From the IMG/VR virus record IMGVR_UViG_3300044491_001697, positions 1 through 29,075 of that record: DNA of 29,075 nucleotides. The stretch is one strand, 5' to 3'. This document shows, piece by piece, positions 479-15,563 of this stretch (position 1 is its first letter; each line of letters starts with the position of its first letter). Both the position numbers and the translations under genes were made by a program. This stretch comes from a virus. Under the pieces are notes generated by a model that was given only the letters and a program-made list of their open reading frames with translations, searched no databases and had not been told where the DNA came from.

Positions 479-670
479 TTAAATATCCAAATTACATTCG
501 TATTCATCACGCCATTCGTCATACACATCTTGCACAACTTCTGGATCAAAACCCAATACAGTCAGTTCCCGTATCAGTCGATCCACATCACCATCATAAA
601 AGAATCGATCAAACACACGATTTACTTTGCGATTCCAAAACTGTTTGGTGTCTGTAATTTCTGCAGTCAT
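479..670 (-). CDS. small acidic phage protein, unknown function
   Basis: 63 residues, starting at an ATG preceded by AAGGAAATACTT. The sequence FWNRKVNRVFDRFFYDGDVD followed by LIRELTVLGFDPEVVQDVYDE is helical and acidic, of a type seen in marine T4-like phages. I do not recognise a family. It is the first gene after the promoter at 702-729 and lies 12 bp before tRNA-Arg(UCU), so the tRNAs and the leftmost gene are probably co-transcribed with it. Confidence 0.7.
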   Translation of the reverse strand: MTAEITDTKQFWNRKVNRVFDRFFYDGDVDRLIRELTVLGFDPEVVQDVYDEWRDEYECNLDI

Positions 671-701: not shown

Positions 702-729
702 AATATAACACATACAGTTGATGTGTCAA
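702..729 (-). promoter_or_regulatory. Early-type sigma70-like promoter P1
   Basis: TTGACA (729-724), 16-bp spacer, TATATT (707-702) on the minus strand, reading into the gene at 670 and the tRNAs. It shares GGTTGACA and the spacer end TGTGT with the promoters at 3523, 3964 and 7981. It lies directly downstream of the tRNA-like sequence and an A-run. Confidence 0.8.
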
Positions 730-739
730 CCTTTTTTTT

Positions 740-816
740 TGGCCTGCCCGCTGAGATTCGAACTGCTGACCCTCAGTTTCGTAGACTGATCATCTATCCA
801 GTTCTGCCACGGAGAG
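740..816 (-). tRNA. tRNA-Arg(ACG)-like sequence, probably degenerate
   Basis: The anticodon arm TCAGT-CTACGAA-ACTGA is perfect (anticodon ACG). The D-loop-like AACTGGATA, T-loop TTCGAAT and a 3' CCA (742-740) are all present, at normal tRNA spacing (77 nt). The other stems fail: D-stem GCAG/GATG does not pair, T-stem AGCAG/CTCAG keeps only two pairs, and acceptor CTCTCCG/CGGGCAG has a C-C mismatch. The stop codon of the gene at 794-1366 lies in its D-loop. It is either a decaying tRNA or a fragment of a host tRNA-Arg; function is doubtful. Confidence 0.55.
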
Positions 817-1366
817 ATTCTATTATACGTCTTTGTGTGGCCAGTTTTTCCTGTTTGTAGTTGATCTCAACACCATCACGTGGTGTATGTTCACCCGGTG
901 TAAACACCATGTCCAGTGCTTCACTGGGTATCCATGCTTCTATGCCATCTGGCACTGCCACCAAGTAGGGTTTGATGTCCTCACCTGTGATTATGCCTAT
1001 TGCATCCTGTTGTCCAATCACATACCAATCTGCAGGCGTTTCAATGTGAGTACCCTTGTGTGTGCCCAGACTGTTTTTCAGTTTAACTTTCACACGTGCC
1101 TTCAGTCGCTTGCCTTTGGCAGTGTACATGCCATCTGCCACATACTTGAACTCTAGTGTATAGTTGTGTACAGTATCAATGTGATCAACACCTACATCAT
1201 CCACATACTTGAGCCTTCCATCTGTGTACACTTCTAGACTCTGTTCTATGATGTCACTTTTGTCAAATCGGTCTTTCCTGTTGTTGAGTTGATCACCTAA
1301 TGCATGAACCAAGTCAATATAACTGTGCCAATCCAAACAGTCACGTAATTCTTGACTATACTTCAT
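794..1366 (-). CDS. hypothetical phage protein, 190 aa
   Basis: ATG at 1366 with GAGG seven bases upstream, overlapping the end of the SWIM gene by 11 bp. No family recognised. The middle is beta-rich (VDHIDTVHNYTLEFKYV, then a basic stretch KGKRLKARVKVKLKN). The C-terminal half has a compact fold-like segment (DWYVIGQQDAIGIITGEDIK, then PYLVAVPDGIEAWIPSEAL) and a basic helical tail ending ESLRGRTG. A D...ExK arrangement (VDH...LEFK) could suggest a PD-(D/E)XK nuclease, but this is weak. Its TAG stop falls inside the degenerate tRNA at 740-816, so the C-terminus may have been shaped by that sequence. Confidence 0.75.
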   Translation of the reverse strand: MKYSQELRDCLDWHSYIDLVHALGDQLNNRKDRFDKSDIIEQSLEVYTDGRLKYVDDVGVDHIDTVHNYTLEFKYVADGMYTAKGKRLKARVKVKLKNSLGTHKGTHIETPADWYVIGQQDAIGIITGEDIKPYLVAVPDGIEAWIPSEALDMVFTPGEHTPRDGVEINYKQEKLATQRRIIESLRGRTG

Positions 1367-1547
1367 ACATCAACCTCTGTTCAACTTCACGAATGTGTTT
1401 GCACTTACGGAATGCAATACAATCACAGTCAAATCCTCGATCATACATTGTGACTGTATATTCATCACCTCGACTGCCCGTCACTGGCCATTTCACACCC
1501 ACAAATGGATGTCCTTGTGTGTTTATTTCTTGTGATTTATGTGCCAT
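1356..1547 (-). CDS. SWIM zinc-finger microprotein
   Basis: 63 residues, ATG at 1547 behind a strong AAGGAG. The C-terminal half, YDRGFDCDCIAFRKCKHIRE, carries CxC followed five residues later by CxH (C-D-C...C-K-H), the SWIM zinc-binding signature; the following helix (REVEQRLMYEV) is typical of the family. SWIM domains bind DNA or proteins. Here the domain stands almost alone, as in small SWIM proteins I recall from marine T4-like phages. It is driven by the promoter at 1571-1598 and coupled by an 11-bp overlap to the next gene. Confidence 0.85.
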   Translation of the reverse strand: MAHKSQEINTQGHPFVGVKWPVTGSRGDEYTVTMYDRGFDCDCIAFRKCKHIREVEQRLMYEV

Positions 1548-1570
1548 CTCACTACTCCTTGTTACATTTT

Positions 1571-1598
1571 ACTTTAACATGTTGTGACATGTTGTCAA
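1571..1598 (-). promoter_or_regulatory. Early-type promoter P2
   Basis: TTGACA (1598-1593), 16-bp spacer, weak -10 TAAAGT (1576-1571), minus strand, reading into the SWIM gene. It begins one base after the TAG stop of the upstream nuclease-like gene (TAG-G-TTGACA). Confidence 0.7.
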
Positions 1599-1599
1599 C

Positions 1600-2364
1600 C
1601 TATAAATCATCGATCCTACGTCGATAACTGGCAGTGTTTACACCCAAGCCTTCACCACCTAGGAAAAAGTCATATGCAAGTTTATCCATTTTGGCTCGAG
1701 TGTTTAGGTTTCCAAAACGTAGTCGGTTTTCCCAATATATTCTCTTCTTTGCACTCATTGGTCTTGAACTGACTGTGGGTTTACATCTGTCCAATATCTG
1801 CATGAATAACTGTTTCTTTTGTTCCAGTGAGTGGGCACTGACAATAGCATCTATATCCTGTTTAGTAAAGTTAACATCATGTTTTTCTACTCTGCTTGGA
1901 CCTTGCAGTAACACACAACGATCTCGATGAAAAACATTCATGGTTTCGCCATGACTGTTGTTTAACTGCATACTCCAATTGGGTTTTTTTGTGCAATCTA
2001 TCAAATGAAAATCATCACCTAAACTCTCATGGTAGAACACCAAGAACACACGTTCCTTGAGTTTGTTTGCAAAAGGCACATAACTTTTCTGTAGTTTCTC
2101 ATCTACACTGTAACCAACTGCACCATCAGGACGTACATTATACAGTTTGGCTTTACGTTTACATTCAAACCATGTTCTCTTGCCATCAGGTGCCACAGCC
2201 ACTACATCTGGTATAGCATGATTGTCATCATCTCTGTACACACTTTTGCCAAACATATTTGGGCCTCGACCTATGGTGTACTTGGGATATTTGGCTTCGA
2301 GATAACTGATGAACTTTGCTTCTAGTTCTGCACCAAACTTTTCCTGTGTTGCAAAATTAGTCAT
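1600..2364 (-). CDS. PD-(D/E)XK nuclease-like protein
   Basis: 254 residues from the ATG at 2364. I chose this start because AGGAAC precedes it and it gives a short 8-bp overlap with the ligase stop; longer forms from ATG 2382 or TTG 2388 are open but lack a good Shine-Dalgarno. Residues 51-69 (IPDVVAVAPDGKRTWFECK) show the nuclease core: D53, then E67-x-K69 on the next strand, with a conserved-looking E in the first helix (GAELEAKFISYLEAKYP). Candidate roles are DNA repair, recombination or host-DNA degradation. The C-terminal part is helical and basic (SAKKRIYWENRLRFGNLNTR) and may bind DNA. Adjacency to DNA ligase supports a DNA-processing role. The specific nuclease family is not recognised. 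Confidence 0.8.
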   Translation of the reverse strand: MTNFATQEKFGAELEAKFISYLEAKYPKYTIGRGPNMFGKSVYRDDDNHAIPDVVAVAPDGKRTWFECKRKAKLYNVRPDGAVGYSVDEKLQKSYVPFANKLKERVFLVFYHESLGDDFHLIDCTKKPNWSMQLNNSHGETMNVFHRDRCVLLQGPSRVEKHDVNFTKQDIDAIVSAHSLEQKKQLFMQILDRCKPTVSSRPMSAKKRIYWENRLRFGNLNTRAKMDKLAYDFFLGGEGLGVNTASYRRRIDDL

Positions 2365-3493
2365 CTCTAGTTCCTGATCCATAATCAATCACCACAGGAA
2401 ACCTAGGAACACCATCGTTACTGAGTTCAAAGTATCTGCAGGTTGCCCATGTAATAGTATCTTTATCTTTTAACAACTGTGCAAGTTTATCTTGACTACC
2501 TCTTACACCACTGCTGAACTGTGTACCATCTGCTAGTTCAAGTATAAATCTTTTGGCATATCCTGCCCAATTACCATTACCTTCTTGTACTTCTACAACA
2601 CGATACTCTTCAGTGATGAACTCTTTCCTCTTGAGCAAGTTTTTGGTTCTCTTGAACTCATAAGGTGTGTTCTGTCTAATCATTTGGCCTTCATAACCTG
2701 CAGTTGTGTAATCTCCATACATAATGTCTATTGCTTTTGGCGTATCACAGATGTGTGTAGAAACCTTTACAATACTATCACCTACATCAGCAGTCTTTAG
2801 GTTCTCCTGTAACCAGTTGTATCTTTCCATAAAGATCATGTCGGGGTTCGCACTGTCAAACATATCATACACATGATACTGTACTAATTCAGCACTCTCG
2901 GCCAGTTCCTGTTCACCAATGTTTACAGTTTTCCTAACCAAACTTGTGATCTTTTGAAAGTTGTCTTTAAGTTCATGATTATACAATTCACCATCTAGTG
3001 TGATTGTAGGATTGTTTGCAATAAAATCTTTCAGTGCTTCAGCAATGTGAGGTACTGCTACAATAGGTTTGTTTGCTCTACTGTATAGTCCTCTGCCGTT
3101 AGCAATACATCTAATACCATCTAGTTTAGGTTGTGTAATACCACTGTCTACTGGAGTTTTTGTAAAGTCATTTGCCAACATAGGTTTGAATGCAGTGTAA
3201 CTGTCTATACTGGCAATATCTTCAAAATATTCTTTTTCTACTCTTTTGTCCCACTCGCTTTGTGCTTCTGCTTTTGCTTGTGTTATATTAGTAGTAGCAT
3301 TTGCTCTGCCAACATTCTTGGCTTCTTTAATATACCATTCACTGGTGACTTTTTTACCATCTTGCAAGCCACTGATTACTCTAGTGCCTGCTTGTGTTTC
3401 ATCCAAATTCCAACCATACTGTATGGTCCACTCTCTGATCTTACCAGTAGTATCTCTCTTGTAAAGTTTGGGTAAATTATAAATTGTCTGCAT
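2357..3493 (-). CDS. ATP-dependent DNA ligase with N-terminal WGR-like domain
   Basis: 378 residues. The nucleotidyltransferase core shows motif I QPKLDGIRC (catalytic Lys123 forms the AMP adduct), motif III ITLDGELYNHE (about 165-174), motif IV YEGQMIR (267-273) and motif V EFKRTKNLLKRK (279-290). An OB-fold domain follows (EYRVVEVQEGNGNWAGYAKR to the end). Residues 1-90 look like a WGR-type domain (YKRDTTGKIREWTIQ...GKKVTSEWYIKEAKNVG...QAKAEAQSEWDKR), which is unusual for the canonical T4 ligase. The protein is shorter than T4 gp30 (487 aa). It should seal nicks during phage replication and repair. Promoter P3 and an AGGAG site lie directly upstream. Confidence 0.95.
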   Translation of the reverse strand: MQTIYNLPKLYKRDTTGKIREWTIQYGWNLDETQAGTRVISGLQDGKKVTSEWYIKEAKNVGRANATTNITQAKAEAQSEWDKRVEKEYFEDIASIDSYTAFKPMLANDFTKTPVDSGITQPKLDGIRCIANGRGLYSRANKPIVAVPHIAEALKDFIANNPTITLDGELYNHELKDNFQKITSLVRKTVNIGEQELAESAELVQYHVYDMFDSANPDMIFMERYNWLQENLKTADVGDSIVKVSTHICDTPKAIDIMYGDYTTAGYEGQMIRQNTPYEFKRTKNLLKRKEFITEEYRVVEVQEGNGNWAGYAKRFILELADGTQFSSGVRGSQDKLAQLLKDKDTITWATCRYFELSNDGVPRFPVVIDYGSGTRDD

Positions 3494-3522
3494 GTATCTC
3501 TCCTACTATCTAACTATACTTT

Positions 3523-3550
3523 ATAATAACACAAATATGGCACTTGTCAA
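3523..3550 (-). promoter_or_regulatory. Early-type promoter P3 (ligase)
   Basis: TTGACA (3550-3545), 16-bp spacer ending TGTGT, TATTAT (3528-3523), minus strand. The TAG stop of the 52-aa gene upstream abuts it (TAG-GTTGACA). The leader (TATAGTTAGA...AGGAGAGATAC-ATG) is nearly identical to those after P4 and P5. Confidence 0.88.
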
Positions 3551-3551
3551 C

Positions 3552-3710
3552 CTAATAGATGACTTGTGCTTCTTTAATTGTTACATATTCAACTTTTGCA
3601 TCATAATTTTGCATACAAGTTTGGAGATAATTTTTTGCTTGATTCCTCTGTGTAAAGCATCTGGTGTATACATCACCATCTTTAAATTTAACAATCACAT
3701 GAAAACCCAT
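3552..3710 (-). CDS. 52-aa phage microprotein, unknown function
   Basis: ATG at 3710 preceded by TAGGAGATACTT, where the TAG is also the stop of the upstream gene, so the two are likely translationally coupled. The peptide begins MGFHVIVKFKDGDVYTRCFT, continues with Q-rich helical sequence and ends EYVTIKEAQVIY: an alternating beta-alpha-beta pattern typical of a small folded protein. The stop codon is fused to promoter P3. No family recognised. Start, ribosome site and position in a packed operon argue that it is real. Confidence 0.75.
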   Translation of the reverse strand: MGFHVIVKFKDGDVYTRCFTQRNQAKNYLQTCMQNYDAKVEYVTIKEAQVIY

Positions 3711-3719
3711 AAGTATCTC

Positions 3720-3935
3720 CTATACCAATGAAGTTTGTATTTCGTACCATGCATCACAGACCATGCTGTCTATCTCATCAACACCACCCAAGTAGTCAGT
3801 AATACCCATTTTTTCTGCTAGTGCAATAGATTGGTGTACTGCTTCAGTTTGTGTTTCTGATTGTCGTATAGCCTTTTCTGCTAGATCATAATACTCGGAT
3901 TCTAGGTCCATTAAATATGATTTAGTTTTGCTCAT
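3720..3935 (-). CDS. small helical acidic protein, unknown function
   Basis: 71 residues, ATG at 3935 behind AGGAGAGATAC. The peptide is amphipathic and acidic (SYLMDLESEYYDLAEKAIRQ, then SETQTEAVHQSIALAEKMGI), with two or three predicted helices and no signal peptide. It is not recognised. It is the first gene after promoter P4 and its TAG stop forms part of the Shine-Dalgarno of the 52-aa gene that follows. Confidence 0.75.
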   Translation of the reverse strand: MSKTKSYLMDLESEYYDLAEKAIRQSETQTEAVHQSIALAEKMGITDYLGGVDEIDSMVCDAWYEIQTSLV

Positions 3936-3950
3936 GTATCTCTCCTATTT

Positions 3951-4145
3951 CTAACTATACTTTATATTAACACATATATCGTTGCTGTCAACCTCTTTTT
4001 CAACACTGTAGTATACATTTTTGATGTTGAATTTACGTATCAGTTGTGAACAGCCAGCACAAGGTTTTGCAAGACCAGTTATCCATTTGGTCTGACAATC
4101 ACTTCGTTTTACTCGTACTATTAATTTGAATAAAGATTTATTACT
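3951..4145 (-). pseudogene. remnant of a cytidine/dCMP-deaminase-like gene
   Basis: One minus frame is open from 4145 to the TAG at 3951 but has no ATG, GTG or TTG before the conserved part. It encodes RSDCQTKWITGLAKPCAGCS then QLIRKFNIKNVYYSVEK. The PCxxC followed by an I-x-x-x-x-I-K-N-V-x-Y strand matches the C-terminal zinc half of the cytidine/deoxycytidylate deaminase fold (compare PCxxCxxxI...GIKxVxY). The HAE half is missing and its expected position is now the 3' end of the glycosyltransferase gene at 4121-4804. I infer a truncated gene left by insertion of the neighbouring module. Promoter P4 lies within its last codons. Confidence 0.6.
3964..3991 (-). promoter_or_regulatory. Early-type promoter P4
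   Basis: TTGACA (3991-3986), 16-bp spacer ending TGTGT, TAATAT (3969-3964), minus strand, reading into the 71-aa gene. It is embedded in the tail of the deaminase remnant. Confidence 0.85.
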
Positions 4146-4804
4146 TCACGTTTCCAAACATGATCATATTCACAGTCTCTCATGTTTTCGAACCAAGGAC
4201 CACCTTCTGTGTAGTGTAATATCTTTGGAGTACCATCTATACCTTCTTGGTAGTGTCCTACCAGCCAGTTCCATTCTGGAGTTAGTTCACCTATTTCGTC
4301 ATCTTCTAACCATGAGAATCTATGCAACCATTGTCCTGTTTGTGAGTTAACTGTGTCTAGATCTAGTGCTTGGTTTTTAGGATGTTCGCAGTTAAACAAA
4401 ACCATACTGCTCCAATTTTTACGTGGATATGGCAGTTGTAATTGTCCATCCATCTTTGTGCCCTCTGGTGGTGTGTAATCATGTTTAACAACATAAACTG
4501 CTTTACTGTCATCTTTGTCTTTGAAAAGATCCCAAGCATCACACAACCACACCATATCACAATCACAGAACACTGCCCATCCTTTGTATTCATTTAGATG
4601 TGGTACTAGGAATCTTGTGAAAGTAAATTCTGTACTTGCTAGTTTGTCTACGTCTCTCCAGTACAGTTTTTCATCTCGTAATTCGTTTTGTTTTAAAGGT
4701 TGTACTGAAACAGAGTCTCGACGTGTGCGTCTTAGTATACTGTGTTCGCACACTTGATATGCAATATCTTCTCTGCTATCCCACCCGACATAAATATTAT
4801 TCAT
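4121..4804 (-). CDS. GT-A glycosyltransferase (GT8-like)
   Basis: 227 residues. The N-terminus NNIYVGWDSREDIAYQVCEH is the nucleotide-binding strand of a GT8-like fold. FTFTRFLVPHL precedes the metal-binding DxD at residues 81-83 (FCDCDMVWLCD), and the acceptor side shows NWSSMVLFNC and PKILHYTEGGPW. Such enzymes transfer a sugar from a nucleotide donor in the cytoplasm. Donor and acceptor are not predictable. It is divergent from the nucleotidyltransferase-cupin gene at 4879 and overlaps the deaminase remnant at its 3' end, marking the left edge of the glycan module. A T4-late-like TAATAAATA lies about 30 bp upstream. Confidence 0.87.
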   Translation of the reverse strand: MNNIYVGWDSREDIAYQVCEHSILRRTRRDSVSVQPLKQNELRDEKLYWRDVDKLASTEFTFTRFLVPHLNEYKGWAVFCDCDMVWLCDAWDLFKDKDDSKAVYVVKHDYTPPEGTKMDGQLQLPYPRKNWSSMVLFNCEHPKNQALDLDTVNSQTGQWLHRFSWLEDDEIGELTPEWNWLVGHYQEGIDGTPKILHYTEGGPWFENMRDCEYDHVWKREVINLYSN

Positions 4805-4829
4805 TAGTTATATACCTATATAATTATTT
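4805..4829 (-). repeat. 25-bp element, copy 1 (23/25 identical to 22608-22632)
   Basis: On the minus strand this reads AAATAATTATATAGGTATAT-AACTA and ends immediately before the ATG at 4804. The second copy, on the plus strand at 22608-22632, precedes the gene at 22663. A shorter relative (TATACGTATAGTTAG) occurs in the leader after P5. It is probably a shared leader or promoter element. Confidence 0.6.
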
Positions 4830-4833
4830 CAAG

Positions 4834-4842
4834 TATTTATTA
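4834..4842 (-). promoter_or_regulatory. T4-late-like -10 element upstream of the gene at 4121
   Basis: TAATAAATA followed by CTTG on the minus strand, about 30 bp before the ATG at 4804. T4 late promoters consist essentially of TATAAATA at -10, so this is a plausible late start site for the glycan genes. A single short motif in AT-rich DNA is weak evidence. Confidence 0.45.
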
Positions 4843-4878
4843 ACATGTAACATACCTTGTGTACATAATGGAGAAACA

Positions 4879-5661
4879 ATGACTACTTTAGTTTTGGTGA
4901 CAGGAGGTTTTGATCCTCTGCATAGTGGACACATAGAATATTTCAAAGCGGCAAAAAAACTAGGTGACAAGTTAGTAGTTGGCGTTAACAGTGACGCATG
5001 GCTGATACGTAAAAAAGGTAAACCTTTTATGCCTTGGACCGAACGTTGTGCTATTATTGAAAACTTGTCAATGGTTGATCAAGTGATTGATGTAATGAAT
5101 GATGACCGGTTTGATGATGCAGGCGGAGCCATTTTTAAATTATTGTCAACAAATAATAGTAATGTTGATATAGTATTTGCCAATGGTGGTGATAGGAAAC
5201 AAGGTAATGTACCTGAAGAAGTTACATATGGAGATTACCAAAATGTAAGTTTTGTTTATGGTGTAGGTGGTGAAAACAAACAGAACAGTAGCAGTTGGAT
5301 ACTAAAAGATTGGTCTGTTCCAAAAGTAGAAAGAGAATGGGGTCATTACAGAAATTTGTACAAAGGCAATGGCTTTATGGTAAAAGAATTAGTAATTAAT
5401 CCACACAGTAGTTTAAGTATGCAAAAGCATCAACACAGAAGCGAAACATGGAATCTTGTGAGTGGTACCGCACATGTATTGATCAGCAACCGAACTATAC
5501 CACAGGATTGTGCCAGGTATAATCTCACTCCTCCTAATCCAATGGATATTCCACGTGGTACTTGGCACAAAGGATTTAACAACAGTGATCAGCCTGCACA
5601 CATAGTTGAGGTGTGGAAAGGTGATATCTTAACTGAAGAAGATATAGAACGTTATGATTGA
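4879..5661 (+). CDS. bifunctional nucleotidylyltransferase - cupin (PMI type II) fusion
   Basis: 260 residues from ATG 4879 (GGAG eight bases upstream; longer open sequence to the left lies inside the divergent gene). Residues 1-130 form a cytidylyltransferase-type nucleotidyltransferase: GGFDPLHSGH with the HxGH signature at 15-18, WTERCAIIENL, and NSSSWILKDW as the ISSSxxL counterpart. From about 135, WGHYRNLYKGNGFMVKELVI and SMQKHQHRSETWNLVSGTAH match the cupin of type II phosphomannose isomerase/ManC proteins (QxHxHRxExW). It probably activates a sugar or polyol phosphate with a nucleotide and isomerises or binds a related sugar. The HxGH-type domain fused to a ManC-type cupin is unusual. 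The next gene overlaps by 8 bp. Confidence 0.88.
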   Translation: MTTLVLVTGGFDPLHSGHIEYFKAAKKLGDKLVVGVNSDAWLIRKKGKPFMPWTERCAIIENLSMVDQVIDVMNDDRFDDAGGAIFKLLSTNNSNVDIVFANGGDRKQGNVPEEVTYGDYQNVSFVYGVGGENKQNSSSWILKDWSVPKVEREWGHYRNLYKGNGFMVKELVINPHSSLSMQKHQHRSETWNLVSGTAHVLISNRTIPQDCARYNLTPPNPMDIPRGTWHKGFNNSDQPAHIVEVWKGDILTEEDIERYD

Positions 5662-6409
5662 AATATGTTGTGTACTAGCCGGAGATAAGTTTGATCCAGA
5701 CGTGTACATTCATCAAATGCTACACAAACTAAGACAGCATCACAGTGATTTCAGACTAACAGTGTTTACTGATAATCCAAACTATTACTACTACCAACAC
5801 AGACAGATACGAGCAATTAGGTTACCTGATTGGGGATATACATCTAGATCCATGTGGTGGTACAAAATGTATCAGTTTAATCCAGATATAGAATGGTCCA
5901 GTCCAGTGTTGTATTTGGATCTTGACACATTGATACTAGGAAAACTAGACAAATTTTGGACTCATGAGCCTGATCATTTTTGTATATTACAAGACTTTAA
6001 TAGAAAATTTGTTCCCGACTATCCCATCAGCAACACCAGTGTTATGAGATGGACACCTCAACAAACTGCAAATTTATTCAGTGAATTTGAAAACAACAGG
6101 CAACACATCACAAGAAAGTTCAGAGGCGATCAAGACTTTGTTACATATCATTTAAAACAACACGGAGACAGTAGATATTGGCCACGTGATTGGGCAATGA
6201 GTTGGAAATGGGAAATTAAACATGGAGGTAGCAACAACGGAGGTATGGAGATTGCTCCAGAGGACTATTATGATCTATCACAGCCTTGGATTATACCACA
6301 TGATTGTAGCATTGTGGTGTTTCATGGAAAGCCTGATCCTTATGAAACAGAACTAGGAAAGCAACAACTATTTCCAAATATCAAGAAGTTGCAACCTCAA
6401 GTCACTTAA
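5654..6409 (+). CDS. GT-A glycosyltransferase
   Basis: 251 residues, starting inside the stop region of the preceding gene (8-bp overlap, coupled translation). The N-terminus MIEICCVLAGDKFDPDVYIH with FRLTVFTDNP, the DxD at 89-91 (VLYLDLDTLILGKL), GDQDFVTYHL and the C-terminal VVFHGKPDPYE with a late histidine are hallmarks of a GT-A glycosyltransferase similar to those in bacterial surface-glycan loci. It should act with the nucleotidyltransferase-cupin protein encoded just upstream. Its last 42 bp overlap the convergent gene at 6368-7366. Confidence 0.87.
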   Translation: MIEICCVLAGDKFDPDVYIHQMLHKLRQHHSDFRLTVFTDNPNYYYYQHRQIRAIRLPDWGYTSRSMWWYKMYQFNPDIEWSSPVLYLDLDTLILGKLDKFWTHEPDHFCILQDFNRKFVPDYPISNTSVMRWTPQQTANLFSEFENNRQHITRKFRGDQDFVTYHLKQHGDSRYWPRDWAMSWKWEIKHGGSNNGGMEIAPEDYYDLSQPWIIPHDCSIVVFHGKPDPYETELGKQQLFPNIKKLQPQVT

Positions 6410-7366
6410 CAAATGATCGCCAAACTGATCAAAGAACCAATTGCGATTGTATTCTATTACAGGTTGCATGTATTCATAACAATCACGTAGATCATTATTA
6501 GACATTTTCTTTTCTACAAATTCACTATTCATATTAATAGCACAGTCTAGTCTTACATCATTTTCTAACACATCATATTCTTCATCAAACATTTTATCAA
6601 ATGTTTCAAAGCCATATGCTTTCATGTTCTCTAATGCACCTATGTGTCCTATCATTAGTATAGGATGTCCAGCAACAATGCTATTGAATGTTTTTTCACT
6701 GATGATTCCAAATTCTTCTGTATATTGGGATTCAGTTACAATGCTGAATAGACTTGTGTTGAAGTTTTTCTTTACACTCAAAAGATTTGCTAGGTTGTCA
6801 TATACATCTTCATATTCATTAAAACTTAGACTTGGATAGTGTAGTTCTTTGCCTGCACTCTGCATACTAACATTACCCCATGGTTTGGTTACCTTACTGA
6901 CTGTAACTGCTCTATGAGGTTTTTGAATACGGTTCATACAAACATAATTGTATTCAAAATCTTTGTTACTATCTGAAAATGCTTCACGTAATACATCTTC
7001 GGCATCTTTGTATTTTTGCCATGTTTCGAATTGATGACTACTGAATTCTACCAAATGAAAACTATCTTTTGGCCAATGTTTTTTAATGCTGAGTGGCCAC
7101 ACAACCACGATAATTTTCCTCAAGACCTCAAGACCCCAAGGAGCATAGTTGTTGTGTATTTGTATTAATTCTCTTGGAAAAGTTTCGCCTTGTGTAAGCA
7201 TGTCTTGTAGACAAAGAACAAGTTTGTATTCTGGTTCTTCAAATCTACATTCATCTACACTAGGTAATTCTACTTCCCAACCATCTTTAGTAATAGGATA
7301 CTTTAATGCTGAATCTATGATTGTACTGTTGGGAAATATCTGTCTGATATAATTTGTAAAATGCAT
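6368..7366 (-). CDS. GT10-like (fucosyltransferase-type) glycosyltransferase
   Basis: 332 residues. The C-terminal half carries FSIVTESQYTEEFGIISEKT followed by FNSIVAGHPILMIG and ALENMKAYGFETFDKMFDEE. This TES...SEKxF..I.AG.P order is the nucleotide-sugar-binding signature of GT10/fucosyltransferase-like GT-B proteins. The same order occurs in 9634-10731, so the two are paralogues. The donor is unknown. No Shine-Dalgarno precedes ATG 7366; a late-like GTTAAATAC ends only seven bases upstream, so translation may be leaderless or the start may differ. Confidence 0.8.
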   Translation of the reverse strand: MHFTNYIRQIFPNSTIIDSALKYPITKDGWEVELPSVDECRFEEPEYKLVLCLQDMLTQGETFPRELIQIHNNYAPWGLEVLRKIIVVVWPLSIKKHWPKDSFHLVEFSSHQFETWQKYKDAEDVLREAFSDSNKDFEYNYVCMNRIQKPHRAVTVSKVTKPWGNVSMQSAGKELHYPSLSFNEYEDVYDNLANLLSVKKNFNTSLFSIVTESQYTEEFGIISEKTFNSIVAGHPILMIGHIGALENMKAYGFETFDKMFDEEYDVLENDVRLDCAINMNSEFVEKKMSNNDLRDCYEYMQPVIEYNRNWFFDQFGDHLLSDLRLQLLDIWK

Positions 7367-7373
7367 TGCACAA

Positions 7374-7382
7374 GTATTTAAC
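7374..7382 (-). promoter_or_regulatory. T4-late-like -10 (GTTAAATAC) at the stop of the preceding gene
   Basis: The minus strand reads TAG-TTAAATACTTG, in which the TAG is the stop of the 56-aa gene at 7382-7552 and the motif ends seven bases before the ATG at 7366. The same AAATACTTG occurs in the element upstream of 4804. If active it would produce a very short or absent leader. Confidence 0.4.
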
Positions 7383-7552
7383 TACTCGTGCAACATAACT
7401 ATGCCTTTACGGTTTAGAGAACGTATTACATTCTCCCAATACTGTACTCCCCAGTCACTGCCACTGCTTTTGCAGTTTAACAGTGCAGTTGCACATAATT
7501 CTATTCTACGATTTACCTCTTCTTGAGGATTTAACATTTCACGTAAATACAT
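7382..7552 (-). CDS. 56-aa phage protein, unknown function
   Basis: I place the start at ATG 7552, behind a GCAGG site, giving MYLREMLNPQEEVNRRIELC to the C-terminal RKGIVMLHE. A longer form from TTG 7591 and a shorter one from ATG 7537 are possible. It overlaps the end of the membrane-protein gene by 22 bp. Helical N-terminal half, a polar middle with CKSSGSDWGVQYW, no signal peptide. It is not recognised; it is the last gene of the operon starting at P5. Confidence 0.6.
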   Translation of the reverse strand: MYLREMLNPQEEVNRRIELCATALLNCKSSGSDWGVQYWENVIRSLNRKGIVMLHE

Positions 7553-7755
7553 CCTTGACCTGCCTGTTCTTTTGTGTATGCAGTATTCCAACCTGGCTTA
7601 ACACCAACATTGTCATACCCTGTTATAAAATGTCTATCTATTCCAACTGCAATAAAAAATATTGCCCATGCAATAACAATTCTAACTGCCCACTTCCATC
7701 CAAACTTTAGTAGGTCTCCCATAAACATTTCAATCATATTGTTATCATTTTTCAT
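7531..7755 (-). CDS. small single-pass membrane protein
   Basis: 74 residues from ATG 7755 with GGGAG nine bases upstream. One hydrophobic segment (WAVRIVIAWAIFFIAVGI, about residues 22-39) follows a short N-terminus and precedes a polar tail (DRHFITGYDNVGVKPGWNTA then YTKEQAGQGCIYVKC). It could be an early inner-membrane protein, for example one affecting superinfection or host transport, but nothing specific supports that. It lies between two small genes of the P5 operon. Confidence 0.7.
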   Translation of the reverse strand: MKNDNNMIEMFMGDLLKFGWKWAVRIVIAWAIFFIAVGIDRHFITGYDNVGVKPGWNTAYTKEQAGQGCIYVKC

Positions 7756-7765
7756 AATCTGCTCC

Positions 7766-7951
7766 CTAAATTACTTTTGTTGTAGCAACTGGTTGATGTG
7801 GTGTGCTACTATTGATTGCATATATGTTACACTCGAAACCTGTATTTTTTGCTATCTTCATTGCCTGTTCAAAAGTGTTTACTCCTGCACATACATAACC
7901 TTGATTAATTAAGTAAACTTCATAGTTTACAATTGGTGCTTGTGCTAACAT
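7766..7951 (-). CDS. small phage protein, unknown function
   Basis: 61 residues, ATG at 7951 with a strong AAGGAG. The peptide MLAQAPIVNYEVYLINQGYV continues CAGVNTFEQAMKIAKNTGFE and CNIYAINS, a beta-alpha-beta pattern typical of small phage proteins of the kind 'x-Y-x-V-x-L...A...A...GxxCxI'. It is the first gene after promoter P5 and carries the same leader as the genes after P3 and P4. Function unknown. Confidence 0.72.
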   Translation of the reverse strand: MLAQAPIVNYEVYLINQGYVCAGVNTFEQAMKIAKNTGFECNIYAINSSTPHQPVATTKVI

Positions 7952-7980
7952 ATATATCTCCTTTTTCTAACTATACGTAT

Positions 7981-8008
7981 ATAATAACACAAAATTGTCA
8001 CCTGTCAA
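7981..8008 (-). promoter_or_regulatory. Early-type promoter P5
   Basis: TTGACA (8008-8003), 16-bp spacer ending TGTGT, TATTAT (7986-7981), minus strand. The terminator at 8018-8038 ends directly upstream, so its T-run leads straight into GGTTGACA. Confidence 0.87.
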
Positions 8009-8010
8009 CC

Positions 8011-8038
8011 AAAAAAATAGGGCATATTATATGCCCTA
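8011..8038 (-). terminator. Rho-independent terminator of the HTH gene
   Basis: On the minus strand TAGGGCATA-TAA-TATGCCCTA forms a perfect 9-bp hairpin followed by seven T. It lies 24 bp after the stop at 8062 and immediately before promoter P5. Confidence 0.9.
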
Positions 8039-8061
8039 CTTTTCCAATATTTTAGATTAGA

Positions 8062-8307
8062 TTACGAAAACATCTTTGCTCTTGAACCGTTTACATCACG
8101 TGCAGTCATTCTATAACGTGTGTAACCTGTAGACGCAATGTCTGTCTTAACGTTAAGTCCTGCAGACTTCATTTCTGACATTCTTGCAGGAAGTTGCATA
8201 ATACCAAACCTTGCGGCGGCATCTTTAGCAGTTAAAGATTTACCAGTACCTCTCAAGTAAGTCTCAAGGAAAGTCTTCTGGTTAGTTTTAATTTTTGTAA
8301 AAGCCAT
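8062..8307 (-). CDS. winged-helix/HTH-like small protein
   Basis: 81 residues, ATG 8307 with AGAGG. The sequence QKTFLETYLRGTGKSLTAKD then AAARFGIMQLPARMSEMKSA reads as helix, turn and recognition helix (AAARFGI...LPARMSEMKSAGLNVKT), followed by a beta hairpin TGYTRYRMTARD. This is a wHTH arrangement, and I recall similar proteins (ending DxNGSRAxxF) as conserved in marine T4-like phages. It probably binds DNA and may regulate early genes. It has its own promoter (P6), a leader with a hairpin, and a strong terminator: a complete monocistronic unit. Confidence 0.8.
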   Translation of the reverse strand: MAFTKIKTNQKTFLETYLRGTGKSLTAKDAAARFGIMQLPARMSEMKSAGLNVKTDIASTGYTRYRMTARDVNGSRAKMFS

Positions 8308-8330
8308 TTTTTACCTCTTTGCTTTAGTTT

Positions 8331-8353
8331 ACTTAGAAAGTTATTTCCTAAGT
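8331..8353 (-). promoter_or_regulatory. Leader hairpin of the HTH gene
   Basis: Between P6 and the ribosome site the minus strand holds ACTTAGGAAA-TAAC-TTTCTAAGT, a 9-bp hairpin with one bulged G. It lies inside a leader of about 50 nt. It may affect translation or mRNA stability. Confidence 0.45.
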
Positions 8354-8361
8354 ATTCATGT

Positions 8362-8390
8362 AGTATAGCACCACAAGAATCTTTTGTCAA
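8362..8390 (-). promoter_or_regulatory. Early-type promoter P6
   Basis: TTGACA (8390-8385), 17-bp spacer, TATACT (8367-8362), minus strand, upstream of the HTH gene. The TAG stop of the 55-aa gene abuts it (TAG-GTTGACA). Confidence 0.85.
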
Positions 8391-8391
8391 C

Positions 8392-8559
8392 CTATTTTTT
8401 AGATTTTTTTGCCTTTGGTGTTCTCTTCCAGATATCTGGTTTAGTTTCACTTTTTGCACCTAGTTCACAAATCGTAGGTTTATTACCTGCATCAAGCCAT
8501 TCTTTGATTAATCTTGCATCTTCTTTGGCTTGTGCTTCTTTTTCGTTAATACCAAACAT
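8392..8559 (-). CDS. 55-aa basic phage microprotein
   Basis: ATG at 8559 behind AAGGATAATATAT. The peptide is MFGINEKEAQAKEDARLIKE, then WLDAGNKPTICELGAKSETK, then PDIWKRTPKAKKSKK. A helical N-terminus is followed by a strongly basic C-terminal tail, which suggests nucleic-acid binding. The TAG stop is joined to promoter P6. It lies 5 bp after the stop of the YodL-like gene in the same orientation. Not recognised. Confidence 0.72.
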   Translation of the reverse strand: MFGINEKEAQAKEDARLIKEWLDAGNKPTICELGAKSETKPDIWKRTPKAKKSKK

Positions 8560-8564
8560 ATATA

Positions 8565-8924
8565 TTATCCTTCCATTAAACTGTTATCTACTTGACTGAA
8601 ACCAAAAGAATCAACCCTATGATATTCTTTTGCCTCTTTATCATACAGAACATCACCAACTGATATACTGTACATAGGCACTGACGTCCTTTTGATGTTG
8701 TCTTCTGGTCCTATGTTTCCAACCTCGAAAGCATGTTCTAGGTCTCTGGCCTGCACTTCTGCAACAGGAACCAAAAACTCAGTGATGTCACTTTCCCTAA
8801 ACTTAGCAGTCATGTATCGCTTGTAAAAATCAATCTTCATCCAATCGTCTTGATTCTTGATTGTGTTAAGTTTCTTTTTTTGTTCAAAACTGAGATTGTT
8901 TTGGAAAAGTGTGTAATTTTTCAT
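8565..8924 (-). CDS. YodL-like conserved phage protein
   Basis: 119 residues, ATG 8924 with AAGGAG about eleven bases upstream. The C-terminal half reads ARDLEHAFEVGNIGPEDNIK, then YSISVGDVLYDKEAKEYHRV and DSFGFSQVD. The order LExxFxxxN...S(x)SVGDVxxx...YxVDSxGF resembles the YodL-like domain of plasmid and phage accessory proteins and conserved marine-phage proteins. Molecular function is unknown. Its promoter P7 carries two palindromes, suggesting tight control. Confidence 0.65.
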   Translation of the reverse strand: MKNYTLFQNNLSFEQKKKLNTIKNQDDWMKIDFYKRYMTAKFRESDITEFLVPVAEVQARDLEHAFEVGNIGPEDNIKRTSVPMYSISVGDVLYDKEAKEYHRVDSFGFSQVDNSLMEG

Positions 8925-8957
8925 TTGACCCGTCTCCTTTGTGTTGTTGCTTTCTTA

Positions 8958-8971
8958 ACTGTACTTACAGT
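8958..8971. promoter_or_regulatory. Operator-like palindrome ACTGTA-CT-TACAGT
   Basis: A perfect 6-2-6 inverted repeat just downstream of and touching the -10 of P7, at the expected transcription start. It is a candidate repressor site. Confidence 0.5.
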
Positions 8972-8996
8972 ATAACATCAATGTTATACCTGTCAA
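8969..8996 (-). promoter_or_regulatory. Early-type promoter P7 with internal palindrome
   Basis: TTGACA (8996-8991), 16-bp spacer, TATACT (8974-8969), minus strand. The spacer and -10 lie within a 20-bp palindrome GTATAACAT-CA-ATGTTATAC (8970-8989, plus-strand reading). The TAG stop of the 45-aa gene abuts the -35. Confidence 0.85.
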
Positions 8997-8997
8997 C

Positions 8998-9135
8998 CTA
9001 TTTTTCATGTTTGCCTGTACGTACAGGAAGTCCTTGATTTACATATTCATTTCGTAAAAACATAACCTGTTTGGGTTGTAGCCATTCCCAAATCAACAAT
9101 TCTCCATCTGGCATTGCAATTTCTAACCAATACAT
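8998..9135 (-). CDS. 45-aa phage microprotein
   Basis: ATG at 9135 with AAAGGA upstream. The peptide is MYWLEIAMPDGELLIWEWLQ, then PKQVMFLRNEYVNQGLPVRT and GKHEK: beta hairpin plus helix. An in-frame ATG at 9168 would add 11 residues but overlaps the -10 of P8 and would precede the transcription start. The TAG stop is fused to P7. Unrecognised; supported by its ribosome site and its place in the promoter-gene-promoter series. Confidence 0.68.
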   Translation of the reverse strand: MYWLEIAMPDGELLIWEWLQPKQVMFLRNEYVNQGLPVRTGKHEK

Positions 9136-9163
9136 ATTGTGTCCTTTATCTAAGTTATGCCTC

Positions 9164-9191
9164 ATAATAGCATATATTACATATGTGTCAA
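9164..9191 (-). promoter_or_regulatory. Early-type promoter P8
   Basis: TTGACA (9191-9186), 16-bp spacer, TATTAT (9169-9164), minus strand, reading into the 45-aa gene. Confidence 0.83.
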
Positions 9192-12837: not shown

Positions 12838-13735
12838 AATTTTTCTCCAACTGTCTATAGCAATATCCGTTTTCTAATTCTGTTGCAGTAAACTGATTGT
12901 AAGACAACCAATACACCAATTTAACTCTGTCTGGTTCTTGATCAAATTCTCTAGGCTTTATATTGTTGTTGTCAAAAACTTCCATAGGAAAACTTACTGG
13001 CCAACAGCAGTTTTGATCTGTTGTTATAACTGGAATACCATCCAATGTTGCCTGTAGTGCTACCATACTGTTGTAAGCAATTACACATTGAGCCTGTCCA
13101 AGGTCATTTTTTAGTTTGGGTACAGGTTCTTGATTCTCATGTTTTTCTAATCTAATCAAATCACCCAACTTGTTTACTATGGGTTCATTTGGTTTTAGTC
13201 TTACTTTTATACGCCAATGTTCATCTGGATGCAACATAGTTTTCAACTTTTGTAATGTTTCATCTAACCATCCTGGAGCAGGTATATCATTATACCAACT
13301 GATGGCATGTGTGGGAGGACATACTAAAATGTGTTCTCCCCTTTGTTCAAATGTTTTCCATGGTTGGACTTTGTTTTCACCTTTAAAAAACATTTTCCAT
13401 CTGTAACTGTCTGCATCTTTTACAAAATTCATTGTGTGTAGATTTTTACAGACACGTAGCCATTGTTTACCATTGTATCCTGGATCAAAATAACTATGAT
13501 CCAAATAATAATAGGGTATACCTTTACTTGCGGCTTCTTTAAACATAAGTCCAGTACCACGGAGAATACCCAAACTAGCAACACCCGTTGCATCATTTGG
13601 AATGCCTTTTTCTCTGTATGTACCTATAGGTTTATACTCTACATTTTTTGGTCCTATCACGTTACACAATCCGTCAAAAAACTTTTGAGTAAAAATTCTT
13701 GTTCTAGGTCTTGCAGTGTCATACACATAAAACAT
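12827..13735 (-). CDS. KpsC/KpsS-like capsule-type glycosyltransferase, paralogue A
   Basis: 302 residues. The features are a short N-terminal Rossmann-like start, a conserved KGIPYYYLDHSYFDPGYN segment, HILVCPPTHAISWY, WRIKVRLKPNEP and the C-terminal CVIAYNSMVALQATLDGIPV followed by ITTD. The last motif (S/N-S-xx-A/L...G-x-P) is the donor-site signature of capsule polysaccharide GT-B proteins (Capsule_synth type). Two more copies of this organisation are at 13719-14516 and 22663-23517. It overlaps both neighbours. Confidence 0.75.
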   Translation of the reverse strand: MFYVYDTARPRTRIFTQKFFDGLCNVIGPKNVEYKPIGTYREKGIPNDATGVASLGILRGTGLMFKEAASKGIPYYYLDHSYFDPGYNGKQWLRVCKNLHTMNFVKDADSYRWKMFFKGENKVQPWKTFEQRGEHILVCPPTHAISWYNDIPAPGWLDETLQKLKTMLHPDEHWRIKVRLKPNEPIVNKLGDLIRLEKHENQEPVPKLKNDLGQAQCVIAYNSMVALQATLDGIPVITTDQNCCWPVSFPMEVFDNNNIKPREFDQEPDRVKLVYWLSYNQFTATELENGYCYRQLEKNYAS

Positions 13736-14516
13736 CGATTAATTCCTTTGCTTTGCCAGAGGCAATTTCTTGATTTGTATACTGTAAGTAAGCAATATTA
13801 TTTAACCATTGTGATGGATCTTTTTGTAACGGAGTCTCTATCAACGACAGTTGTGTATGACTTACTGGTGTTGCATAACTTTCTACGTCACAGAAAGTTG
13901 GAGTGCCCAACAGTTGTGCCTCTACTGCAACTAAACTTACACTTGTTACAACACACCAAGCATTTTTACAATCCTCTTGAAAACTTTGTACACCGGCTGA
14001 CTTTTCTGCAAGTGGTCCACTTGTTCCGTTTGCTCTAGGCTTGTATCTGATCTTAATTGGTCTGTCAGTGTGTTTTTGTATCTCGTCTACAGTATCTGAT
14101 ACCCATTGTTTGACATTTTTATTTGTATACATTTGTGTCATTGTTTCACTGCTAGGACATATTAATATTGTGTCACCTTGTGATGTTTTAGTTATAGGAG
14201 TATTCCATTGCTTGTATCTGTCTGCAGGACAGTTCATAGCATCAGGTATTTGATGAAATTTATTTTTTGAGACACGCCAGTAGCATGTATCAACAATTCC
14301 CCATCTACCATGGTAGGGCATATCCCAGAACCACCATTCTTTTAATTTGGGGATAATACTTCTATTATTTTGTATTATACCCCAGAATGCACTAGGTATA
14401 TCTTCAATTTTATCTCTGTCTGCAACTTTGGCTCCCGGCCAACCCTGTAACAGAGCATCCATGACTATATTACATTTGCTTTCTTTATTAACTGTATTAT
14501 AGTAGCAATTTAACAT
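13719..14516 (-). CDS. KpsC/KpsS-like capsule-type glycosyltransferase, paralogue B
   Basis: 265 residues. ILICPSSETMTQMY, RPIKIRYKPRANG and CVVTSVSLVAVEAQLLGTPT parallel the segments of paralogue A, including the terminal VT-S-x-S...G-x-P motif. The N-terminus MLNCYYNTVNKESKCNIVMD fits a first strand, favouring ATG 14516. However, a consensus promoter (14496-14524) overlaps that ATG, and a transcript from it would begin at the ATG at 14462. Both forms may exist. Role inferred: sugar polymerisation in the glycan pathway. Confidence 0.75.
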   Translation of the reverse strand: MLNCYYNTVNKESKCNIVMDALLQGWPGAKVADRDKIEDIPSAFWGIIQNNRSIIPKLKEWWFWDMPYHGRWGIVDTCYWRVSKNKFHQIPDAMNCPADRYKQWNTPITKTSQGDTILICPSSETMTQMYTNKNVKQWVSDTVDEIQKHTDRPIKIRYKPRANGTSGPLAEKSAGVQSFQEDCKNAWCVVTSVSLVAVEAQLLGTPTFCDVESYATPVSHTQLSLIETPLQKDPSQWLNNIAYLQYTNQEIASGKAKELIDVLCV

Positions 14517-14524
14517 TTTGTCAA
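14496..14524 (-). promoter_or_regulatory. Consensus sigma70 promoter P9 inside the operon
   Basis: TTGACA (14524-14519), 17-bp spacer, TATAAT (14501-14496), minus strand: a perfect match to the bacterial consensus. It directly follows the TAA stop of the GT61 gene (TAA-G-TTGACA) but contains the annotated ATG of the next gene in its spacer. Confidence 0.7.
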
Positions 14525-14525
14525 C

Positions 14526-15563
14526 TTATAATGTCTTGATCCAGTTATTAAAAGCAACCAAGTTATTGACTTTCCATGGACTGTTATAATCTCTTGCACC
14601 TGCTACAGGATCTGCAAAAACAACAGCACCTGGATACAAGTTTATACTGCACTTTTGCATCCATGGTGCTTGTGCGACAATGTGTCTATCGTGTGTATCA
14701 CTAGGAAAAGGAAAACCTGGAGAATGTATGCCTCCTGTGATTAAGTTTTGATTTATACGCCACAGTATATTAGTAACACCTGCACCTGCTGTACTGATGT
14801 ATTTTTCCATATGGCTGAACATACTGATTTTTTCACCCAAAGAATAATTTTCACCAAAAACTTCTTTCCATCCGTGTCGTGTCATTATTTCGACCATATC
14901 ATCTTCATTTGTTATACCACGTTTCACTGTGTTATCTTCTCCTATGGTCAGTTTCCTATCTTTTAATGGATTAGCGTGTGCTCTACGACTAAGATATATT
15001 TTCTCATGTCTAGGCACATCAGGAAATCTTTGTCTGCTGATTGTAACCAGCCTCTGTATCAAGTCATATATTTTAGCATGTGGTTTACATCTTTTGCCTG
15101 TACGTAATTCGTTTACTAATGTACAACTATAAAATACTTTTTCATAGTTGCAGTTAACATTGCTGTACTGCCAATCAATGTCTAGCAGTTCTAATAATTC
15201 TAATACAAATGGTGGATGTTTAGTTACAGTTCTACCATTAGGATTTAACAAAAGTTGTAGATTAGGATATTGTTTTTTAAGTTCTAGATAGTTTGCCAAA
15301 GGTCCAAGTCCGTCATTGATACAATGGTAATAATTCATCAGTGGAGTTGTGTACCAATAGAAGTATAATCCTTTTGCATCTTGTGTTGTGTCTGGTATAT
15401 CTTTTGGAGCCTTTGTTGTAAGCACCGAAGCATTTTTACCTAAATGATAGGCAATAAGTTGTTTGTCTTTGACAAACCATTCTACTTTACCTTCCAGTGG
15501 TAATATTTGTAAATTATCTAAACTGCCTATTCCGTTTTGGTCTAATGTATTTCTTATAGTCAT
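14526..15563 (-). CDS. GT61-family (DUF563-type) glycosyltransferase
   Basis: 345 residues from ATG 15563 (one base after the upstream stop, GGAA in front); a longer TTG form from 15602 would overlap. LYFYWYTTPLMNYYHCINDG gives the N-terminal histidine region. HEKIYLSRRAHANPLKDRKL, then NEDDMVEIMTRHGW, and YISTAGAGVTNILWR match the GT61 pattern IYxSRxxAxxRRxxNE...GxxxExG.AGxxNxxx. GT61 members transfer xylose, GlcNAc or arabinose. The substrate here is unknown. Confidence 0.85.
   Translation of the reverse strand: MTIRNTLDQNGIGSLDNLQILPLEGKVEWFVKDKQLIAYHLGKNASVLTTKAPKDIPDTTQDAKGLYFYWYTTPLMNYYHCINDGLGPLANYLELKKQYPNLQLLLNPNGRTVTKHPPFVLELLELLDIDWQYSNVNCNYEKVFYSCTLVNELRTGKRCKPHAKIYDLIQRLVTISRQRFPDVPRHEKIYLSRRAHANPLKDRKLTIGEDNTVKRGITNEDDMVEIMTRHGWKEVFGENYSLGEKISMFSHMEKYISTAGAGVTNILWRINQNLITGGIHSPGFPFPSDTHDRHIVAQAPWMQKCSINLYPGAVVFADPVAGARDYNSPWKVNNLVAFNNWIKTL

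Follow-up and report, generated by a model that had tools for sequence, protein, structure and literature searches.

A family of near-identical putative early promoters at closely packed gene junctions of a marine T4-like phage and its relatives

The early promoters of phage T4 have been described as 'uber' promoters of the UP/-35/TGn/-10 type, which compete for unmodified host polymerase (PMC2988021). In T4-like phages, early promoters joined to stem-loop terminators, i.e. the PeSLs, have been proposed to mediate gene shuffling (Arbiol, 2010; Comeau, 2014; both as cited in PMC4503421). The stretch of viral DNA analysed here (the window; 29,075 nucleotides, IMG/VR record IMGVR_UViG_3300044491_001697) bears eight minus-strand elements, P1 to P8, which can be compared with both. 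As in T4, an A-rich upstream region, a consensus -35, a TGn and a -10 lie ahead of genes of early type, but the window family presents GG plus TTGACA instead of TTTAC(A/T), with a spacer that is mostly of 16 nt. The early promoters of RB49 are also of the TTGACA type, and in a candidate recovered by pattern scan at 36985 the upstream gene terminates at the TGA within TTGACA; the 50 kb scanned in this phage nonetheless display varied contexts, with no GG-TTGACA family of near-identical sites. Regarding the PeSLs as they are summarised in the citing source, the likeness lies in an early promoter positioned at gene junctions of changing content, P5 being found directly after a terminator hairpin, whereas most sites of the window family have no stem-loop and abut or overlap the preceding stop. 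The features under consideration are the following.

P1, 702..731, minus strand: GGTTGACA-N13-TGT-TATATT; ORF 479..670 behind.
P2, 1571..1602, minus strand: TAG stop of ORF 1600..2388 plus GTTGACA-N13-TGT-TAAAGT; ORF 1356..1547 behind.
P3, 3523..3554, minus strand: TAG stop of ORF 3552..3710 plus GTTGACA-N13-TGT-TATTAT; ATP-dependent DNA ligase gene 2357..3493 behind.
P4, 3964..3993, minus strand: GGTTGACA-N13-TGT-TAATAT; ORF 3720..3935 behind.
P5, 7981..8010, minus strand: GGTTGACA-N13-TGT-TATTAT, immediately 3' of a terminator hairpin (PeSL-type); ORF 7766..7951 behind.
Terminator-like hairpin, 8011..8042, minus strand: AGGGCATATAATATGCCCT plus a T-run, separating P5 from the HTH_39 gene; folding energy of the stretch, -20.1 kcal/mol.
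P6, 8362..8394, minus strand: TAG stop of ORF 8392..8559 plus GTTGACA-N14-TGC-TATACT; gene of an HTH_39 protein, 8062..8307, behind.
P7, 8969..9000, minus strand: TAG stop of ORF 8998..9165 plus GTTGACA-N13-TGT-TATACT; YodL-like ORF 8565..8924 behind.
P8, 9164..9193, minus strand: GGTTGACA-N13-TGC-TATTAT, 3' of a weak hairpin; ORF 8998..9135 (45 aa) behind.
P9 (candidate of the first-pass annotation), 14496..14528, minus strand: TAA-GTTGACA-N16-TATAAT region, with TAA-GTTGACA at 14524.

Eight near-identical minus-strand promoters had been reported by the first-pass annotation, and their coordinates (given at the 3' end of the respective -10), the shared GGTTGACA and the spacers (16 nt in P1-P5, P7 and P8, 17 nt in P6) were all confirmed. 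Every element is made of GGTTGACA, 13 nt (14 in P6), TG[TC] and a -10 hexamer; the extended -10, which appears as TGT or TGC abutting the hexamer in 8/8 elements, had been missed. The fusion of TAG to GTTGACA claimed at P2, P3, P6 and P7 is real, each TAG terminating the upstream ORF, while an adjoining upstream ORF stop was looked for at P4 and none was found. Behind P8, the listed start of a 55-aa ORF (ATG 9165) overlaps the -10, and the true start is likely ATG 9135, giving 45 aa. As for P9, said to repeat the stop fusion with TAA, it was rejected as a member of the family: it has no TGn, reaches a score of 14.9 with the matrix presented below, and holds within its spacer the ATG of ORF 13719..14516, so that a transcript from P9 would miss the start of this ORF. 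P9 is probably a chance match and not a promoter. Just upstream of P1, a tRNA-like sequence with a possible ACG anticodon loop was observed (745-820, minus strand); it was called by neither ARAGORN nor Rfam and may therefore be a decayed tRNA. In the interval that separates P4 from the ORF ending at 4121 (3950-4120), a minus-strand frame reads by eye as a putative deaminase-like C-terminal fragment, which runs through P4 and ends in its leader.

Proteins similar to UvsX, UvsY and SSB (PHROG matches) are encoded in the window together with an ATP-dependent ligase, and a relative with a ligase 81% identical carries a T4-type Gp23 capsid gene (E=1e-99), which together place this marine phage among the T4-like phages. 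When isolates are ranked by UvsX and ligase similarity, phages of alphaproteobacteria come first, and a nucleotide search against isolated phages returned a tRNA as sole match. In the relatives, the genes found behind the motif encode a 5'-3' exonuclease, a DNA methyltransferase, AAA proteins, the ligase and small proteins of no known function. The HTH_39 gene behind P6 has the same promoter type in front of it in most of 54 relatives, after many different genes. In uncultured marine phages of the T4-like group, the promoter family would allow early genes, often without a known function, to be recognised from the sequence alone.

A weight matrix was built from the window's own sites, with strong sites defined by a score of at least 18. 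In the window, 8 such sites were present on the minus strand and 0 on the plus strand, against 0.0 per strand in Markov-simulated sequence. Since these sites match the matrix by construction, the independent support comes from the sites of the relatives, namely 6 strong sites in a 134-kb relative, all on one strand with 0 on the other, and 17 on a single strand of a 203-kb relative (200 kb searched), the other strand having 0. Across 149 related loci, a motif search matched 45 times on the strand that carries the query gene, never on the opposite one and once in the reversed control, and an exact-pattern search of the relatives likewise found the motif on one strand only. While loose sigma70 scans of the window barely exceed shuffles (47 vs. 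38.3), as would be the case if the elements were chance sigma70-consensus matches in AT-rich DNA, the full motif (8 vs. 0 in the control) is confined to one strand and kept in the relatives, which makes a chance origin vanishingly improbable, and it was rejected. At most of the eight positions preceding the GG, A is present in 27-37 of 52 non-redundant sites; this tract is UP-like in sequence, with a putative UP activity. Further downstream, TATAGTTA lies 2-5 nt 3' of the -10, near the expected transcription start, in 16/66 family sites (about a quarter) vs. 1.9 in shuffled sequence; it follows the -10 of P3, P4 and P5 and is also present in relatives.

A stem-loop check of P1-P8 gave a hairpin at P5 (the one at -20.1 kcal/mol), a weak one at P8 and none at the rest. 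The P5 hairpin was missed by a standard terminator scan, probably because its stem extends into the T-run. A hairpin like AGGGCATATAATATGCCCT follows the HTH gene in relatives, there without a promoter. Over the family, a terminator hairpin is joined to the promoter in 12/84 sites, where shuffled sequence gives 0.2. What the window contributes is thus a new family within a known kind of promoter, whose members for the most part carry no stem-loop.

The -35, the TGn and the -10 match the host sigma70 consensus in 8/8 window sites. Together with the UP-like A-rich region, the occurrence of the motif in relatives and Gp23, this supports the earlier claim of an early-promoter family in a T4-like phage. 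It is highly probable that P1-P8 are strong sigma70-dependent T4-type early promoters, closely packed and each belonging functionally to the gene behind it; their early timing is predicted from the resemblance to T4 promoters, and their strength and use of the host polymerase are likewise predictions. Counting against the T4-type reading, the TTGACA of the family is unlike the TTTAC(A/T) of the T4 candidates found by scan. In the course of infection, the unmodified host RNA polymerase would transcribe the small early genes at once from P1-P8. Each promoter occupies a very short intergenic gap. As a consequence, the stop of the preceding gene falls at one of three places: shortly upstream of the element (TAA, about -22 to -5), on its edge (TAG-GTTGACA) or within the -35 itself (GGT TGA CA). 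The promoter would be a functional part of the gene behind it, and gene gain, loss or replacement would consequently leave junctions at its upstream edge, which is the reason we infer for the junctions being found there.

The stop positions were counted over 84 non-redundant sites, loci fetched with the TAGG pattern being excluded, of which 71 have an upstream gene. The upstream stop lies within -24..+4 of TTGACA in 60 of these 71 sites, vs. about 5% at random positions. The commonest mode is a TAA about 5 to 22 nt upstream, followed by the fused modes, i.e. a TAG at -4 (10/71) and the TGA inside TTGACA serving as stop (9/71), or 19/71 in total. In the TGA mode, the last residues of the upstream protein are coded by promoter sequence, KG or KKG being the ending in A-rich examples; in the loci L206-L259, upstream proteins entering the promoter in the TGA frame were seen to carry promoter-encoded tails such as KKG, EKG or NKG. 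As TAA, TAG and TGA modes are all encountered, fusion represents the tightest case in a graded range of close packing, and the arrangement is mostly ordinary, since candidate promoters overlapping a stop are present in T4 and RB49 as well; a pattern scan of the T4 region 1-50000 places two candidates (2457 and 20611) immediately behind a TAG stop. Stop fusion as the rule was rejected on the count of 19/71, and the proposal that it is the defining design is not supported, given its minority status in the relatives and the fused candidates of T4 and RB49. Most simply, stop fusion is a by-product of close packing. It seems very unlikely that the fusion itself has been selected, making 'gene plus next promoter' modules: where the upstream gene is read in the TAG frame, TAGG shows a modest enrichment (7/18 vs. 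6/48, window excluded, one-sided p=0.02), but, besides the scarcity of fused junctions and their occurrence in T4 and RB49, an ORF entering GGTTGACA in the right frame necessarily stops at its TGA, and the 63-locus adjacency test detailed below revealed no excess of exchange at stop-fused over other promoter junctions, conservation being 0.55 vs. 0.32 (p=0.06), i.e. in the opposite direction.

Where the same promoter and downstream gene follow unrelated upstream genes, identity begins at -19..0 relative to the GG in 55/57 pairs, representing 16 promoter lineages. In pairs that share the upstream gene and differ in the downstream one, the break falls right after GGTTGAC(A) in 17/19 in-register cases, which stem from a handful of families, in an analysis that could show same-register pairs only. 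With the register unrestricted, the partner promoter stands in the same register in 31 of the 93 comparisons where there is one and is absent in 185/278, many being shifted by 1-16 nt; a fixed recombination joint is therefore not required. At locus L147, a 132-aa gene with an extra promoter is inserted between the TAGGTTGACA of an 88-aa gene and the ligase promoter, where close relatives have one promoter, and identity to these relatives breaks at the shared element. Gene adjacency was compared on 95 loci and then on 63, the latter excluding the loci fetched with the TAGG pattern. Over the 63 loci it is conserved at 0.38 at promoter junctions vs. 0.57 elsewhere, with a p value (1.7e-4) that exaggerates the evidence, as related junctions enter the count repeatedly; deduplicated by gene family, the values are 0.27 vs. 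0.58 (p=0.04, n=7 vs. 32). An earlier, underpowered test on the window and two large relatives, with 5 promoter junctions, gave p=0.33. The larger comparisons make a quantitative case for a faster turnover of gene order where a junction bears a promoter, which agrees with the PeSL idea. The modular exchange suggested in the first-pass annotation is partly supported, by the breaks at the promoter edge and the lower conservation of adjacency, but not as a property of the stop-fused junctions.

These observations could also be read as promoters acting as recombination cassettes, short homology (GGTTGACA and the leader) between copies swapping gene-plus-promoter units as with PeSLs. The insertion at L147, the in-register breaks and the lower adjacency, deduplicated or not, are all in favour of such a role, which is nevertheless rather doubtful: once the register limit is lifted many partner promoters are shifted or missing, an 8-nt match is expected from promoter function alone, and a gene with its own promoter tolerates moving without the promoter acting in recombination. 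Promoter autonomy of this kind fits the data as well as promoter-mediated recombination does. It is unlikely, too, that the -35 box serves as both stop codon and recombination joint, in which case the 3' end of the upstream gene would hold the -35 and the incoming gene would bring the spacer, the -10 and the leader, the promoter being regenerated at each exchange.

Among the genes preceded by these putative early promoters, both large relatives (G1, site 20407; G15, site 177805 on the reverse complement; L150-L166) have a family promoter before the gene of a protein of 1096-1401 aa. By eye, this putative protease is subtilisin-like, starts in the manner of a lipoprotein and has a C-terminal region that resembles an autotransporter.
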